Source: Acidobacteria subdivision 13 bacterium RH2 MAG17b (GTDB lineage Bacteria; Acidobacteriota; Terriglobia; UBA7540). Taken from it: a DNA stretch of 43,114 nucleotides. The first letter of the stretch is position 1. Each line of letters begins with the position of its first letter. The DNA is taken from contig NFUN01000059.1 in assembly GCA_002197525.1 (NCBI GenBank), positions 1-43,114 on the forward strand, written 5' to 3'. The position numbers and the translations under genes are program-made. Positions 12,076-39,568 of this stretch are shown in pieces. Under the pieces are notes generated by a model. That model saw nothing but the letters and a program-made list of their open reading frames with translations, was not told where the DNA came from and did not search any database.

Positions 12076-12163
12076 GGTAGTGTCTCAGTTTGAACGTAGA
12101 GGCGGCTTTACGCCGCCACATGGCGAGGTAAGCTCGCCTCTACAAAGGCCAAACTGAGACACT
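12076..12163. repeat. Composite palindromic (MITE-like) element between ftsW and murG
   Basis: Outer arms 12079-12092 and 12150-12163 are perfect 14-bp inverted repeats (AGTGTCTCAGTTTG and its complement). Nested inside are 9-bp inverted arms GTAGAGGCG (12096-12104) and CGCCTCTAC (12135-12143), with a further GGCGG hairpin between. The left boundary reads GGTAGTG, shared with the repeats at 23499 and 30920. No coding capacity is present. Confidence 0.75.
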
Positions 12164-12251
12164 GCCCGTTTTTTCGAGCGCGCTGCGGAGCGGCTTGCGC
12201 GGCTTTCAGTTTAACCGAAGGGAGGCAAGCATTTCTCCGGTTACAGAAACG

Positions 12252-20444: not shown

Positions 20445-20463
20445 TGGCTGCATAGCAGCCATT

Positions 20464-20589
20464 CTATTGAGAATTACAAATTATAGTGACGGCTTTTTTG
20501 TAGCGCCGGTGTCCTCACCGGCGTCTTTCGGCGCTGAGGACAGCGCCGCACCAGCGGATGTTGTCACTATAATTTGTAAACCTCAATAG
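20464..20589. repeat. Composite palindromic (MITE-like) element between convergent genes
   Basis: Outer arms 20464-20490 and 20563-20589 are 27-bp inverted repeats with 25 matches. Between them lie GC-rich hairpins beginning TGTAGCGCCGG and a GCGCTGAGGACAGCGC stem. The arms are AT-rich, unlike the flanking genes. Lying between the convergent ends of the MocA-like gene and the exported protein gene, it could serve as a bidirectional transcription barrier (inference). Confidence 0.75.
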
Positions 20590-20618
20590 AGGGCGGAGCC
20601 CTATCGCAAGTCTGGGGG

Positions 20619-31011: not shown

Positions 31012-31087
<76 letters not shown>

Positions 31088-31142: not shown

Positions 31143-32231
31143 CATGACGCGCAAGGCCGATTCGAAGGTGTTCAAGGCTTCCTTGCGAAGGCCAAGCGCG
31201 GTCTTGGTGTAAACGTTCAAGTCTACGTCAACTGAATGCCCGAGCTGGTCGGCCACTATCTTTGGATCGACCTTCAGTTCTCGCATAAGGGATGCGTGGG
31301 TGCGCCGCATCACCTGGAAATTCACCCATTCGAGGCCAACTGACTTCAGCCTGGGTGCAATCCACCGTCTCCAGCAATTGTCTTTCGACAGCGGAGTTTT
31401 CAGGGTCTCCGAAGGGAACACCCACGCCTCCGGGCCGGGATCGCCGGATCGCGATCTCCACCGGGCGATCTCGGACTGTAGACCCTGGGAAAGCGCGACA
31501 CTCCGTTTGGACTGATTCGTCTTGGGAGAGTCTATCTTTCCTCTGTACAAACGCTGTTCGATCTCGATGTGGTCGGCATTGACGTGCCGCCACTTAAGGC
31601 CGAAGATCTCGCCGGGCCGCATACCTGCTATGGTGGCAAGCATGCAGACCGCGAGTTCTCTTGCCTCAAGGACCGAAAAAAGTAACCTGACCTCCTGCCA
31701 CGTCATGACACGCTGAACGGGGCGCAGGGTCTTGTTGGGCGTAAACAGAAGAGCGGCGGGATTCTTCTGCAAGTAGCCTTCGACGACCGCCATGCCGAAG
31801 ATTTGCTTCATGTCCCATCGCAGATGATCCACCGTACTGAACGACAATCCGGCGATGGCCTTCCGGTCTAAGAAATCCTGCAATTCGCTCGCCTTGAATG
31901 ATTTCAATGCGAAGTCGGCGAATTCGCAGGTGAGGTGATGTTCCAGGCGGTCTAGGTTGCACGCCGTGGTGGAACTCTTCCACTTGCGGCGATACCAGGG
32001 GAGATAGACTTGGTTCACGAAATCACCGAACTTCCAATCTTCCGATGGGCCATCCTGTTTCGTGTTAATGGCGGCCAAAATCTCCGCCAGCTTGTCCTTT
32101 GCTTGGGACTTCGTAACCTTGCTGACCTTCCCAAGCAGTTTGTTTCGGCGGTGTCCTTCTTCCCACCATTGGGCAATCCAACGTCCACGAGCAATCTTCA
32201 AACTTCCTTCCTGATGCCGTTTACGACTCAT
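31140..32231 (-). CDS. int: Tyrosine recombinase/integrase
   Basis: The 363-residue integrase has an N-terminal arm-binding region (KIARGRWIAQWWEEGHRRN), a SAM-like core-binding domain (about 65-165) and the catalytic domain. Catalytic residues are Arg205 in GMRPGEIFGLKW, a lysine in SPKTNQSKR (237/242), Arg309 in FQVMRRTHASL, His332 in QLGHS and the nucleophile Tyr341 in NVYTK. The first histidine of the usual H-x-x-R box is replaced by Gln306. It should join the tRNA-Gly site with the island. It is the last gene of a unit with the excisionase-like gene, whose end overlaps its start by 11 bases. Confidence 0.95.
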   Translation of the reverse strand: MSRKRHQEGSLKIARGRWIAQWWEEGHRRNKLLGKVSKVTKSQAKDKLAEILAAINTKQDGPSEDWKFGDFVNQVYLPWYRRKWKSSTTACNLDRLEHHLTCEFADFALKSFKASELQDFLDRKAIAGLSFSTVDHLRWDMKQIFGMAVVEGYLQKNPAALLFTPNKTLRPVQRVMTWQEVRLLFSVLEARELAVCMLATIAGMRPGEIFGLKWRHVNADHIEIEQRLYRGKIDSPKTNQSKRSVALSQGLQSEIARWRSRSGDPGPEAWVFPSETLKTPLSKDNCWRRWIAPRLKSVGLEWVNFQVMRRTHASLMRELKVDPKIVADQLGHSVDVDLNVYTKTALGLRKEALNTFESALRVM

Positions 32232-32490
32232 GAGACTCTCCTCTCATGGGTCTAGCGGCGCCGACTTCCGGCGACACGGGCATCATAGCATCAAACGCGC
32301 CTCTTTCATTTGCTCTTTTCCATCGCTCCAGTGCGGAGCGGCGGACAAGCTTCCTCCTGCCCATATGAATCGCTGGAAGCGCCGAGACGCCCGCCACTTT
32401 GCCATTGATCGCATTGTGTACGTGGGCCTTGGAGCATCGCAGCTCTGCCGCGACTTCGGCCACGGTGAGAACCTCATCATGGGCTGTCAT
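32221..32490 (-). CDS. Excisionase-like helix-turn-helix protein
   Basis: The 89-residue protein is a winged-helix DNA-binding domain of the excisionase/MerR-like kind: VLTVAEVAAELRCSKAHVHNAINGK, then PAIHMGRRKLVRRSALERW. This family bends DNA at attachment sites to favour excision or acts as a small activator. AAGGTG lies just before the ATG. Its position between initiator and integrase genes and its overlap with the integrase start suggest it controls the direction of recombination. The C-terminal 30 residues are not conserved in the fold. Confidence 0.82.
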   Translation of the reverse strand: MTAHDEVLTVAEVAAELRCSKAHVHNAINGKVAGVSALPAIHMGRRKLVRRSALERWKRANERGAFDAMMPVSPEVGAARPMRGESHES

Positions 32491-34701: not shown

Positions 34702-37700
34702 CTACTCAATCGGCCATTTGGGGATGGCGGCGTCGATTTCGGCCATGAGGCGGATCGTCTCACTCAGTGCCGTGACGACTTTACAGTAGTGCTCCAGATC
34801 ATCGTAAGTGAGGGTCCGGCCACGCCTGTCTTTCAGCCACTTCTCGCAAACCTGATAGCCGCCAATGTGAAAATTCCAGAGTTCGAGCGGCACGCCTTCG
34901 AAGTATTGCCCCTTCGTTCCGCTTTGCGGATCGTCCTTGCTGATATACACGCGGCCCGCTTCGAGTGGCTTCCCCGTGCCCGGCTCCGGCTCGCCGGGGG
35001 TGCGATACTTCGGGAATCCCTTCTCAATAACGTTCGAGCCTTTGACGGGATACCGGGCAATTGGATTTTGGAGCACAGGCGATTCGAGCAGATGCAAGGC
35101 CACAAGCTCCGCGCCCAAGCCGCAGAGCGAGCGGAATAGATTCACATTTGAAGTGAGCGGCACGCGCGGGAAATCGCTCTTCAGAAATTCCGCGTAGCGG
35201 GACCGGTATGTGGGTGAATGGAAAACGGCGTAAATGTAATTGAAAACGTCTTCCGGCCCAAAGGTCCCTGTAGCGGCTGGCGCCGATCCCAGGTCGCCTT
35301 TGCCCTCCGGCACAAACCTCAGCCCCAGCCGCTTTTCGAGGTCGGCAACGAATTCAGGGTCGAAATTTGCCTGCCGCCCATTCTTGCCAGATTGCCAATG
35401 CGATGCTTGGACCGTAAGCTGCCCCTGCCCAGCATTCTTTGTCGCGGCTTGGGGGTATAGGTAGAGAGGAAATAGGTTCGAACCGTCCTTCAACTCGACA
35501 TACACTGCCGGAGCCGGTGAATCAGAAACGACCGCGTGTTTCCAGAAGGGCATTTTTGTCTGGCGTACTGTATTTAGACAGAGATTTTCCTTGCCCTCCA
35601 CGTGGTCTATCAGCTCACGGCGTGGGTAGTCCATCGCAACCGTGCTGAAGTAGCAGGTACGTTTGTCGAAAGGCCGGTAAAGACATCGAATGAAGTGGCT
35701 CTCCCAGTCTCTGTCCTTGCGCACTTGTTTTCGAGCAGTTGTGAGTCGCCAGTCCCGGTTGTCGCGCAATTCATAGAGGCTGCGTAATTCTTCATCAGTC
35801 TTGGTATCTCGTCGCAAGTCTCCTATGCGACCTCTTAAGGTGGCCTCCTCAAAATCGATTGCGAAATGGTCTCGGTGAGACTGAAACCCGAGAACGTTTA
35901 AGGGCATGGCATCCGTCAGCTTCCACGCTTTTTCGTACTCGGCCCTCATGCTCACCTCTTGGGCTATGAAAAGGTAGAAGGGCGACTGCGGGGAAAGACT
36001 CGTCCATTGAGTTGATTTCAACTCTCTTTCGAAAAGGAACATGTATTTACTTTCCCTAAGCCCCCAGAGCTCTGAGTGGAACACTTTGGCTGGTCCTGCT
36101 CTGTGTGGCTCTTTGAAGAAAACTCCGAGGGTCACGCCCTGCTGAATGTCGAAGACGTTTTCATCCTTTGAGCCGCCCGGAGCTCGTTCTTTCTTCTTCG
36201 AGTTGCCGTGCAAATCGAGAACGTAGATTTCCGAAAAGGCGTTCATCAACTGCTGGCGCATGCCCCGGAATGTGGGATTATCCAAATAGCCGTGATTGGT
36301 GATAAAAGCCAGAACCCCCGCGCCGGTCCGCTCAATGCGCCACTGCCCCCAGCGGATGAATTTCACATAATCATCCTGGAGCCACTTGGGGTTTCTCTCT
36401 CCAAGAGGCTGGCCGTCCACTTTGTAATAATCCTGAATCAGTCGCCCGATGAAGGTCAGTTCCTTCTTGCCGTTTTTTACTTCCCAACTCCGGTTGGCGG
36501 AGTGGCCCGAATACGGCGGGTTGCCGATCACGGCGAGAATTGGTAACTCGCTCTTGATCTTTGCGGCCGCATTTCCTTCCTGAGTAATCACGCGCAACGG
36601 CCCGAAGAGGGTTTCGGCTCGCCGCTCTGCCTCTTCAAGCGTGTTCGTGAGAAACACTGCCAAGCGTTCGTCCCCAGCGAAATCGTAAGCCCACTTCTCC
36701 CGCAGTGCCGGAGTAAGATCGTTTCCGGCAAGCTGCATTCCCAGCTTGAAATGCGCTACGGCGTAGGGGGCCATCAGCAATTCAAACCCGAAGATGCGGG
36801 GCAACAGGTGATTGCGCACATAGCCGGACCACATCCCGGCGTTGCCTTGCCGCATGAATTCGGAGCGAATCAGGTCAACAACCGCGTAAAGAAATGTGCC
36901 GGTCCCGCACGCGGGGTCAAGAATCAGGACACGGGGGGAAGTGGCTTTCAGTAGCGGCGGCGTCCCCGCCGCCGTTGTAGCGCCGCTCTGCGAGCGGCGA
37001 TCTTGTTGTGGGCGGTCATAGACCGCCGCTACAGGTTCGCGCTCGTATTCGATTGTCGCTGTGTCTGCGAGTCCATCCGCGCATCCGAAACGGGTCTTCA
37101 ACAAATAATCCACGGACCGGACAAGGTATGAAACAACCGGCTCCGGCGTGTAATAGACTCCGCGCGATTCGCGCAGCTTGGGGTCATAGGCTGCGAGGAA
37201 GGTTTCGTAAAAGTGTACAACCGGGTCTTGGCGGGCGGTCCGCTTGCCGAAGTCTGCGAGCACGGCTTCCATGTCGGTATCGGCCAAGAGCTGGGCCAGG
37301 TCATCCACGAATCCGGCAAAAGGCTCTTCATCCAGAGCCGTGCCGGTGATGGTTTCAAAGAGTTGGCGAAGGAAGGGATTGGTTTTCGGAATTTCGGCTG
37401 CGGCGCCCAATCGCTTGAACGAGCCTGTTGGCCCGTGATGATTGCAGCGGGCCGCAAACAAGCCATAGGCCAAGGTTTGTGCGAACATATCGGCAAATTG
37501 CGGGATGGGCAGATCAGGGATAAGCGCCGTCTCGAAAGCCCGGTGCAAGTCGCGGAGAGTGGCAGAGGCCGCTTTCGCTTCAAAAGCCTTAACGATCATG
37601 TCGCGAATGAAATGCGTAAGCTGGGCCATGCGAAGGGCCAGAGCCTTCGGTTCGTTGATAGTCTGGGCCTCTTGGGCCAGAAACGCGGTGAGCAGGCTTG

Positions 37701-38133
37701 TGAGGGCTTCGGCTCCGTCCTTCTCCGGGACGAGCTTTCCCCCTTTGTCGGCGCGGGCGAGCCGGGCCGGGTCCGCCCGCCTGTGGCCGTCCACATACCA
37801 GCGGAATTCCAGATAGTCGGTAAGAATCAGGTTGGGCAGAGCGCGAAGATACCGCTTCATTTGCTCCGACTTCTCAGCTTCATCCAGGCTCTTGCCTACA
37901 TCCTTGGCTTCAAGGTGGCCAATTGTGACGTGGCCGTGAGCGCGCTTCTCCGTGAGCGCGAAGTCCGGTGCTCCGCATTCAACACGCTTAGGCTCGTTCG
38001 TGGCGGTGATCTTCGCGGCGAGAGATTGAAGGAGGGTCTTGAGAGCCGGGCGGTGAGTGTGCTCGGTGGCGTTGCCCGCTTGCAATTCGCGCTCGATCTC
38101 GCGGCGGTATGTGTCTACGGGAGTGAAAGGCAT
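34702..38133 (-). CDS. Single-chain restriction-modification enzyme (type IIG / ISP-like, without helicase)
   Basis: The 1143-residue protein joins nuclease, methyltransferase and specificity parts. A PD-(D/E)xK centre lies at the N terminus: Asp57 in GAPDFAL, Glu75 and Lys77 in HLEAKDVGK, with Gln91. The N6-adenine methyltransferase has motif I DPACGTGTF at 406 and motif IV N-P-P-Y at 538-541. The C-terminal 300 residues (IYAVFHSPTYRSRYAEFLK, LWNFHIGGYQVCEKWLKDR) match the ISP-type specificity region. Type ISP enzymes have a helicase between nuclease and methylase, but none is seen here. Residues about 368-394 are encoded by an inserted palindromic repeat. AGGA precedes the ATG. It should methylate self DNA and cut invading DNA. 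Confidence 0.88.
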   Translation of the reverse strand: MPFTPVDTYRREIERELQAGNATEHTHRPALKTLLQSLAAKITATNEPKRVECGAPDFALTEKRAHGHVTIGHLEAKDVGKSLDEAEKSEQMKRYLRALPNLILTDYLEFRWYVDGHRRADPARLARADKGGKLVPEKDGAEALTSLLTAFLAQEAQTINEPKALALRMAQLTHFIRDMIVKAFEAKAASATLRDLHRAFETALIPDLPIPQFADMFAQTLAYGLFAARCNHHGPTGSFKRLGAAAEIPKTNPFLRQLFETITGTALDEEPFAGFVDDLAQLLADTDMEAVLADFGKRTARQDPVVHFYETFLAAYDPKLRESRGVYYTPEPVVSYLVRSVDYLLKTRFGCADGLADTATIEYEREPVAAVYDRPQQDRRSQSGATTAAGTPPLLKATSPRVLILDPACGTGTFLYAVVDLIRSEFMRQGNAGMWSGYVRNHLLPRIFGFELLMAPYAVAHFKLGMQLAGNDLTPALREKWAYDFAGDERLAVFLTNTLEEAERRAETLFGPLRVITQEGNAAAKIKSELPILAVIGNPPYSGHSANRSWEVKNGKKELTFIGRLIQDYYKVDGQPLGERNPKWLQDDYVKFIRWGQWRIERTGAGVLAFITNHGYLDNPTFRGMRQQLMNAFSEIYVLDLHGNSKKKERAPGGSKDENVFDIQQGVTLGVFFKEPHRAGPAKVFHSELWGLRESKYMFLFERELKSTQWTSLSPQSPFYLFIAQEVSMRAEYEKAWKLTDAMPLNVLGFQSHRDHFAIDFEEATLRGRIGDLRRDTKTDEELRSLYELRDNRDWRLTTARKQVRKDRDWESHFIRCLYRPFDKRTCYFSTVAMDYPRRELIDHVEGKENLCLNTVRQTKMPFWKHAVVSDSPAPAVYVELKDGSNLFPLYLYPQAATKNAGQGQLTVQASHWQSGKNGRQANFDPEFVADLEKRLGLRFVPEGKGDLGSAPAATGTFGPEDVFNYIYAVFHSPTYRSRYAEFLKSDFPRVPLTSNVNLFRSLCGLGAELVALHLLESPVLQNPIARYPVKGSNVIEKGFPKYRTPGEPEPGTGKPLEAGRVYISKDDPQSGTKGQYFEGVPLELWNFHIGGYQVCEKWLKDRRGRTLTYDDLEHYCKVVTALSETIRLMAEIDAAIPKWPIE
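36951..37032. repeat. Palindromic repeat inserted in frame inside the restriction-modification gene
   Basis: The block is bounded by GTAGCGGCGG (36951-36960) and its exact complement (37023-37032) and contains three successive GC hairpins, the middle one starting TGTAGCGCCGC. It matches the inner modules of the intergenic repeats elsewhere in the window. It is read through without a stop and encodes a Gln/Arg/Ser/Thr-rich insert (including VYDRPQQDRRSQSGATT) between the helical region and methyltransferase motif I. Confidence 0.8.
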
Positions 38134-38230: not shown

Positions 38231-39568
38231 CTATTCCAGTTCAGCGTCAATGATCTCGCGGACCAGTTCGCGGACTTCCTTGGTGGTCTCATTGCCAGAC
38301 AATCTGGCTTGCAAGCCTCGCTGGACGGCTTCTTTCAAGTCAGCATTGAATTCGCTGTTCCAAGAGTCTTCGTCTGAGATTTCGCCCACGCGCTTTAGCT
38401 CTAGCAGATAGTTTGAAACTTCAGCAACTCCTTGCTGAATCAGGCTGGTCTTGCGGGCTTGGCGCTCCTTCTCTGCCTGCCGCTTTTCGATCTCCGCGCA
38501 CGCTTCTCGGATAGTCGGCTCCAGGGCTTCCTTAGCTTCGGCTTCCGAAACATCCTGGGGCAGTTCTGCCAATATCTCGACGCACTCGCGGCCAAGCCGT
38601 GCTCTGTCCAGGTCGGTCCGGCTCCAGGGGAGTCTGAGGGATGCCCACCGAAGGAGCTCGGCATCAAGCAGGCGTCTTTTGACCGCTTGGCGCACGGGCT
38701 GGACGGTTTCCTGTATGGCAACGCGCATTTCGCATACGTCGGCAGAGCTGTCCAAGCGCCCAAGGGCGTCCCGGATCGCGGCCGTCGCCTTCACCCTCTC
38801 GGCCTCGGTCGCGGAATACGGCAAGCTCCACAGAGCCTCGTTCGTGAGCCTCTGGCGGCGTTCCTGTGCGTCCCGTTCGGCTCGGAAGGGTTCGATTAGG
38901 GCCTCCAGGCTGCGAGCGATAATTGCAGCCATTCTCGGCTGGTCGGCGGCCTGCCGCTTCTCGATCTCGGCCTCCAAGCCCTCAAGCACTTCCATGCGCT
39001 GAGGGGCTGAAAGCCATGGATACTGGTAGGCGGACACGGCTTCGCTCGCCTTCGCCTGCCATCGGCAACGGAATGCTGCCAGTTCCTGCTCTGCTTCATG
39101 CTTCTCCCACTCCTCGGCTTGTTCCCGCTCCTGATGTGCCTTCTCAAGCTCCAGCCGCTCGCGCTCCAGTTTAAGCTCGGCCTCGCGCTGGGCCGCTTCC
39201 TCCTCGCGGGCCTGGGCCTCGGCCTCCCGTCGCTCGGCTTCCTCTTGTTCCTCCCGCCGAAGCTTCGCCAGCTCTCGCCGTGCCCGGTGTTCTTGGGCTT
39301 CAAGAGTCAACTCCTCCAGCCGCTCTCGCCGATTCTGCAGGACGGGTGAGGCTTCGCGGACGGGGCGGGGTCGGGCCTGCCGCTGTTCCCGCACAGCCTT
39401 AATGCTCTCCGCCGTAATCCGAACGTGTCCGCCTGGGGTCCTGAAGCCTTCCAGTTGGCTGTCTGCCACCATGCGCTTGACGGTGGGGATCGAAACGCCC
39501 AACAGTCTCGCGGCCTCGCTGGCGCTGCAAGAATCAGCTTCGGAACGATTTTTGCCGATATTTTTCAC
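38231..39568 (-). CDS. Helix-turn-helix (MerR/excisionase-type) protein with long coiled coil
   Basis: The 445-residue protein starts (GTG) with a DNA-binding domain SCSASEAARLLGVSIPTVKRM and LEGFRTPGGHVRITAESI, typical of the BldC/MerR-like excisionase HTH. A highly charged coiled coil of about 120 residues (RRERLEELTLEAQEHRARRE onward) follows, then a helical C-terminal domain with YQYPWLSAPQRMEVLEGLEA and acidic end EVRELVREIIDAELE. The layout recalls DNA-binding scaffold or partition proteins, but no partner ATPase is in the island. It lies 97 bases upstream of the restriction-modification gene on the same strand. Function unknown. Confidence 0.7.
   Translation of the reverse strand: MKNIGKNRSEADSCSASEAARLLGVSIPTVKRMVADSQLEGFRTPGGHVRITAESIKAVREQRQARPRPVREASPVLQNRRERLEELTLEAQEHRARRELAKLRREEQEEAERREAEAQAREEEAAQREAELKLERERLELEKAHQEREQAEEWEKHEAEQELAAFRCRWQAKASEAVSAYQYPWLSAPQRMEVLEGLEAEIEKRQAADQPRMAAIIARSLEALIEPFRAERDAQERRQRLTNEALWSLPYSATEAERVKATAAIRDALGRLDSSADVCEMRVAIQETVQPVRQAVKRRLLDAELLRWASLRLPWSRTDLDRARLGRECVEILAELPQDVSEAEAKEALEPTIREACAEIEKRQAEKERQARKTSLIQQGVAEVSNYLLELKRVGEISDEDSWNSEFNADLKEAVQRGLQARLSGNETTKEVRELVREIIDAELE

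Follow-up and report, generated by a model that had tools for sequence, protein, structure and literature searches.

Three GTAG-type REP hairpins read in frame in a Type IIG restriction enzyme

REPs of the GTAG superfamily carry GTAG at one end of a short palindrome with a stem of 5-13 bp and a loop of 2-20 nt. Known representatives with a GTAG tag, a perfect stem and a 3-4-nt loop are associated with RAYT/TnpA-REP. They form inverted pairs, are present in high copy and mostly intergenic, have RAYT genes beside the hairpins and are sometimes located in frame in genes (Di Nocera et al., 2013, PMC3733652; Corneloup et al., 2021, PMC8266576). Such intragenic GTAG REPs were proposed to be tolerated in flexible linkers or loops, and recB of X. 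campestris and X. oryzae contains different REPs at about one coding site (PMC3733652). The mechanism of REP movement is unproven even in E. coli (PMC8266576). For RAYT (class 2 TnpA-REP) genes, no evidence of movement is stated (PMC8266576, introduction; PMC6006769, Vertical versus horizontal inheritance), and a few unexpectedly long RAYT-family proteins were discarded as gene fusions or annotation errors (PMC6006769). Rickettsia palindromic elements (RPEs) also add residues to proteins in frame. Two of them, RPE-4 and RPE-6, are CGTC REPs with no known transposase (PMC3733652). In the searchable literature we found neither restriction enzymes laden with REPs nor a RAYT lying in frame within another gene; the words 'restriction' and 'methylase' are absent from the main text of PMC3733652.

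All properties listed above for GTAG REPs are shared by the locus described here. Unlike in the published systems, one enzyme family is hit repeatedly at several linkers and contains entire RAYT genes in frame. As in recB, one coding site holds different REPs, but there two congeneric species and one site are concerned, here several sites and several phyla. The window, i.e. the whole stretch of DNA analysed, comprises 43,114 nucleotides and contains the following elements:

36951..37032, no strand assigned: 82-bp element of three GTAG REPs, one single and one inverted pair (REPIN/BIME-like), from hairpins, fold and family in its own genome
36951..36974, plus strand: REP 1, GTAGCGGCGGCGTCCCCGCCGCCG, 8-bp stem and 4-nt loop, from hairpin analysis
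36977..36999, plus strand: REP 2, GTAGCGCCGCTCTGCGAGCGGCG, matched exactly by the genome-wide REP pattern
37010..37032, minus strand: REP 3, GTAGCGGCGGTCTATGACCGCCC, inverted, from hairpin analysis
36949..37032, minus strand: translated insert, residues 368-395, from alignment with homologues and low AlphaFold confidence

The 82-bp block is a cluster of three GTAG-type REP hairpins read in frame in a restriction enzyme. Its ends form a perfect 10-bp inverted pair, GTAGCGGCGG (36951-36960) and CCGCCGCTAC (37023-37032), and enclose three inner hairpins (36955-36974, 36981-36999 and 37011-37027); the block lies exactly where the initial annotation had placed it. The DNA folds with -31.7 kcal/mol compared to a shuffled mean of -18.0 (z = -5.8), and none of 200 shuffles was equally good. 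Two of the three REP hairpins supply the outer 10-bp ends with their GTAG tags. All three hairpins have such a tag at one end, with stems of 7-8 bp and loops of 3-4 nt, and REP 2 and REP 3 constitute a 56-bp inverted pair. The entire block occurs once in the host genome, and parts of it are found repeatedly (12 matches at E<=1e-3, self included). A MITE with terminal inverted repeats (TIRs) was considered and rejected: outer TIRs such as AGAGTCTGTGTGAAAACT are present in intergenic relatives of the block, which itself has no long outer TIRs and ends in the 10-bp REP ends only.

In the 2.8-Mb host genome (169 contigs), a pattern count complemented by a sample yielded 280 strict GTAG hairpins, while the reversed-pattern control gave 0. 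They are dispersed and mostly intergenic, and many are arranged in +/- pairs about 20 nt apart. The window itself contains GTAG relatives at 20500 and 5965, which bears out the suspected kinship with its intergenic repeats. Congeners have 55-117 strict hairpins, and the REP type of the block is present throughout the whole host family, so that the insertion may have preceded or followed the arrival of the island; in most genomes outside this family, counts are near the control level. Twelve matches to NF047646 (RAYT) were found in the host genome, and GTAG hairpins adjoin RAYTs on contigs C12, C75, C102 and C122. The RAYT on C122 adjoins GTAGCGGCGATGTCCTCATCGCCG, a hairpin type that the linkers of L129/C41 and L024 contain as well (see below). 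Tag, dispersal, inverted pairs and RAYT association place the block in the GTAG REP superfamily. The proposed likeness to the Rickettsia elements thus stands only for the outcome, additional residues in frame: the tags are GTAG and not CGTC, the family is accompanied by RAYTs, and the lineage is not Rickettsia, as genes in several host-family genomes match named Acidobacteriota assemblies in linkers and frame lengths. Membership among the RPEs was, therefore, rejected.

G056 is the main exception to the background counts: this genome does not belong to the host family and contains 638 strict GTAG hairpins of the same type, which suggests either transfer of the REP family or its parallel expansion. 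Many intergenic REP copies sit within longer inverted-repeat elements with at least three TIR types (window 20463-20590 and 12076-12166; L013-L021). In L013-L021 and at 20463, such elements surround GTAG hairpins, which looks like hitchhiking of REPs in MITEs. One of those in the window is:

20463..20590, no strand assigned: intergenic element of 128 bp with 28-bp terminal inverted repeats, enclosing the GTAG hairpin at 20500

The gene that contains the block encodes a Type IIG enzyme with the following features:

34702..38133, minus strand: Type IIG (type ISP-C) restriction-methylation enzyme, 1143 aa (Pfam Type_ISP_C 2e-81; PADLOC REase_MTase_IIG 3.4e-273, residues 11-1134)
37903..37965, minus strand: putative PD-(D/E)xK nuclease residues D57, E75 and K77, nearly invariant in homologues
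36892..36918, minus strand: SAM motif I DPACGTGTF, residues 406-414, intact in the homologue alignment
36511..36522, minus strand: motif IV NPPY, residues 538-541, intact and invariant in 53 homologues

One chain comprises the putative nuclease, methyltransferase motifs I and IV and the specificity domain, as in Type IIG enzymes; D57, E75 and K77 we take to be the PD-(D/E)xK nuclease from the motif alone. The closest solved structures, DrdV (7lo5) and LlaBIII (4xqk), are relatives in sequence and fold. Unlike the window enzyme, DrdV has no insert; its matching helix and motif I are separated by about 7 residues only.

As the initial annotation had claimed, the block is translated without a stop. 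It encodes residues 368-395 (VAAVYDRPQQDRRSQSGATTAAGTPPLL), which end about 10 residues ahead of DPACGTGTF. REP-free homologues (L022, L023, L025) keep both flanking motifs and have a short homologous linker without a palindrome that ends with KATSPRVL or KVTSPRVL (EEAIAGEAKKVKATSPRVL in L025). In the window enzyme, EYEREP is followed by 28 residues and KATSPRVL. The insert is missing in these three homologues, an outcome on which the annotation had beforehand made its proposal depend. Some homologues are devoid of any linker (GLADENTLILDPACGTGTF). Judged from this alignment, the 28 residues are a true insertion in this linker. The earlier figure of about 27 added residues agrees with the encoded segment but not with the net gain: the linker comprises 27 residues in REP-free relatives vs. 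46 in the window, i.e. about 19 more, because the insert replaced part of the old linker. In the AlphaFold model, the insert has block means of 52 and 46 and is located between strands 360-365 and 395-400, with confident prediction on both sides. Tolerated insertion in disordered loops would be the best reading, and lengthening of the loop is most likely the sole effect of the added 28 residues.

Other genes of the host genome also carry in-frame REPs, as had been supposed. Of 83 distinct strict REP hairpins sampled, 13 have a long spanning frame, some sharing one. After Pfam analysis, C41 (type ISP) and C122 (Eco57I-type) were the clear intragenic cases besides the window, and a looser scan added C85 (type ISP) and PrmC; within one genome such cases are few, and no rate can be derived from a sample of this size. 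The frames of L134, L137, L148, L156, L158, L206, L221 and L227 were rejected or left out of the clear cases. They are likely upstream extensions, since the Pfam domain, where found, starts after the REP. The Eco57I-type enzyme (L232 394-3606, G000:C122) has a four-hairpin REP insert directly before NPPY, and a RAYT gene is located nearby on the same contig (21699-22091). In the housekeeping gene prmC (L235 1375-2394, G000:C35), GTAG REPs are read in frame directly before SAM motif I. Restriction enzymes are prominent but not exclusive REP targets, because PrmC is hit, too. A special REP enrichment in these enzymes was discarded: IIG genes and the genome as a whole have roughly the same strict REP density, and the genes stand out only against other coding sequence.

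Five members of the window's clade (window, L129, L024, L028, L104) have GTAG inserts in the same linker. The last four, among them L129, the own-genome paralogue C41, differ in sequence, hairpin number and edges. The L028 insert begins after TTTV and ends at PRVL, and L104 has a different REP type that is dispersed in its own genome. In a linker-free tree, insert carriers interleave with empty relatives with at least four state changes; the tree was calculated by a quick method (LG+G4), and such counts cannot separate gain from loss. An alignment of 72 homologues revealed palindromic repeat inserts at further linkers (query 80, 187, 235, 677-681, 943-951 and 1066), and C41 has inserts at three linkers. 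Segments at query 470 and 550 proved to be ordinary protein insertions without palindromes. In a Thiotrichaceae MAG (L060/L065), the same linker holds an unrelated palindrome, CCCTCACCC...GGGGAGAGGG; the L060 repeat is matched at least 84 times within its genome. The two paralogous enzymes of this MAG (L060 4676-6047; L065) each carry the CCCTCACCC-type repeat at several linkers. Palindromes similar to that in the L060/L065 linker are found in L074 and L101. Overall, about six further linkers of the enzyme family hold similar inserts, which in other phyla stem from unrelated repeat families.

Instead of repeated independent insertions, a single REP might have entered the linker in an ancestor and later diversified or been lost. 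All GTAG-bearing homologues at this linker belong to one 8-member clade and one hairpin is common to L129 and L024, as would be expected then. However, hairpin number, sequence and edges differ (edges in L028, REP type in L104), the interleaved empty relatives have one homologous linker in common, and the same linker is occupied by unrelated repeats in other phyla. We regard a single ancestral event as unlikely.

In two relatives, a complete RAYT/TnpA-REP gene and the REPs on its borders lie in frame within the enzyme, at linkers that are empty in homologues. In G008, a member of the same family (L238 618-4901, G008:C244), LLVR and FRHLWG are separated by the whole RAYT within an uninterrupted frame of 1428 aa, and two REPINs with 92% identity border the RAYT. 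C85, its homologue in the host genome, has 11 residues at this site; conversely, C85 carries a repeat-like insert at a site where G008 has none. G016 encodes the nearest homologue of the window enzyme. The C-terminal half of this protein (L240 1-1551, G016:C362) has the RAYT at query 948, bordered by one REPIN and one REP, and a further REPIN at 1066. Position 948 is empty in the window enzyme. The N-terminal half of the G016 enzyme, with a REPIN at 370 that ends in the same GCCAGCGAGACGCTGGCGCTAC hairpin as follows the RAYT, lies on a different contig, which apparently abuts. Both frames match NF047646 (REP-associated tyrosine transposase) above its cut-off of 80 bits (82.8 and 83.4). MPNHVH (HUH) and the tyrosine aligned to Y115 of E. 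coli TnpA-REP are retained in both RAYTs. The chimeric frames are predicted fusions. In five other larger RAYT frames (C74 of G006 and four more) no fused enzyme was seen, and the remaining RAYTs listed in 39 host-family genomes have frames of less than 500 aa.

These two embedded RAYTs are the most consequential part of the analysis, because published statements deny evidence of RAYT mobility. REP-bordered RAYTs at sites empty in homologues are a previously missing kind of evidence on their movement, and the sites provide defined loci for testing REP and RAYT movement. Tentatively, RAYTs with bordering REPs might be mobile units with mobile R-M genes as one vehicle, and in-frame landing in linkers might allow them to ride defence islands without killing the host gene.

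We consider it likely that three GTAG REPs of the host family, delivered by a RAYT, reside in a permissive surface loop of the Type IIG enzyme and are tolerated there. A REP-associated HUH tyrosine transposase would have delivered the hairpins as single-stranded DNA; alternatively, REPs already present may have recombined. Most REPs landing in genes would be lost and those that keep the frame in disordered linkers would survive. Large, modular and dispensable restriction enzymes offer several linkers and would, therefore, keep collecting REPs. In two relatives, such linkers would also have taken up a complete RAYT gene with its REPs. The inserts show neither a target duplication nor a dated insertion, and this we count against the explanation. 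In-frame REPs illustrate how short mobile DNA feeds new protein segments at tolerated joints, here for defence enzymes from several phyla. Their positions mark where restriction enzymes can be lengthened.

It seems improbable that the inserts are under selection, whether as modifiers of linker length, specificity or activity or as a means to inactivate the enzyme. Defence enzymes are indeed hit repeatedly, and a similar speculation was made for repair genes by Di Nocera et al. (PMC3733652). However, the loop at the modelled site is of low confidence, the catalytic motifs are intact, and across the linkers unrelated sequences of very different lengths are found, the longest being an entire RAYT of about 250 residues. 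Still less probable is a decaying pseudogene that gathers repeats. Some related genes look broken (G000:C148, L189, split over frames; G002:C32, L104 and L239, with a TAA stop), but the frames in the window, C41, C85, C122, G008 and L024 are intact and the window enzyme keeps its conserved motifs. Pairwise omega in the enzyme family, RAYT/REP carriers included, amounts to 0.08-0.18, a range that fits working enzymes and averages over long branches, so it is no proof of function after insertion. The window enzyme is expected to stay active despite the insert. An assembly or binning artefact with misjoined repeats is hardly credible: assemblers fail at short repeats, several records are short contigs and most compared genomes are metagenome assemblies, but the frame is kept in the block and in the paralogous inserts, such inserts recur in many independent assemblies, and G008 would need two false joins because the enzyme flanks the RAYT on both sides and the flanking REPs are only 92% identical.

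The assignment of the gene to a mobile island agrees with its neighbourhood:

31143..32243, minus strand: phage integrase, adjoining tRNA-Gly
31012-31086: tRNA-Gly, beside the phage integrase

The enzyme gene lies about 2.5 kb beyond this integrase, and the island reading is reasonable because of integrase and tRNA-Gly at such a distance. Just upstream of the enzyme gene, at 38231-39568 (minus strand), an HTH_17 protein with a weak match to mads_1 is encoded, which may regulate the restriction gene.
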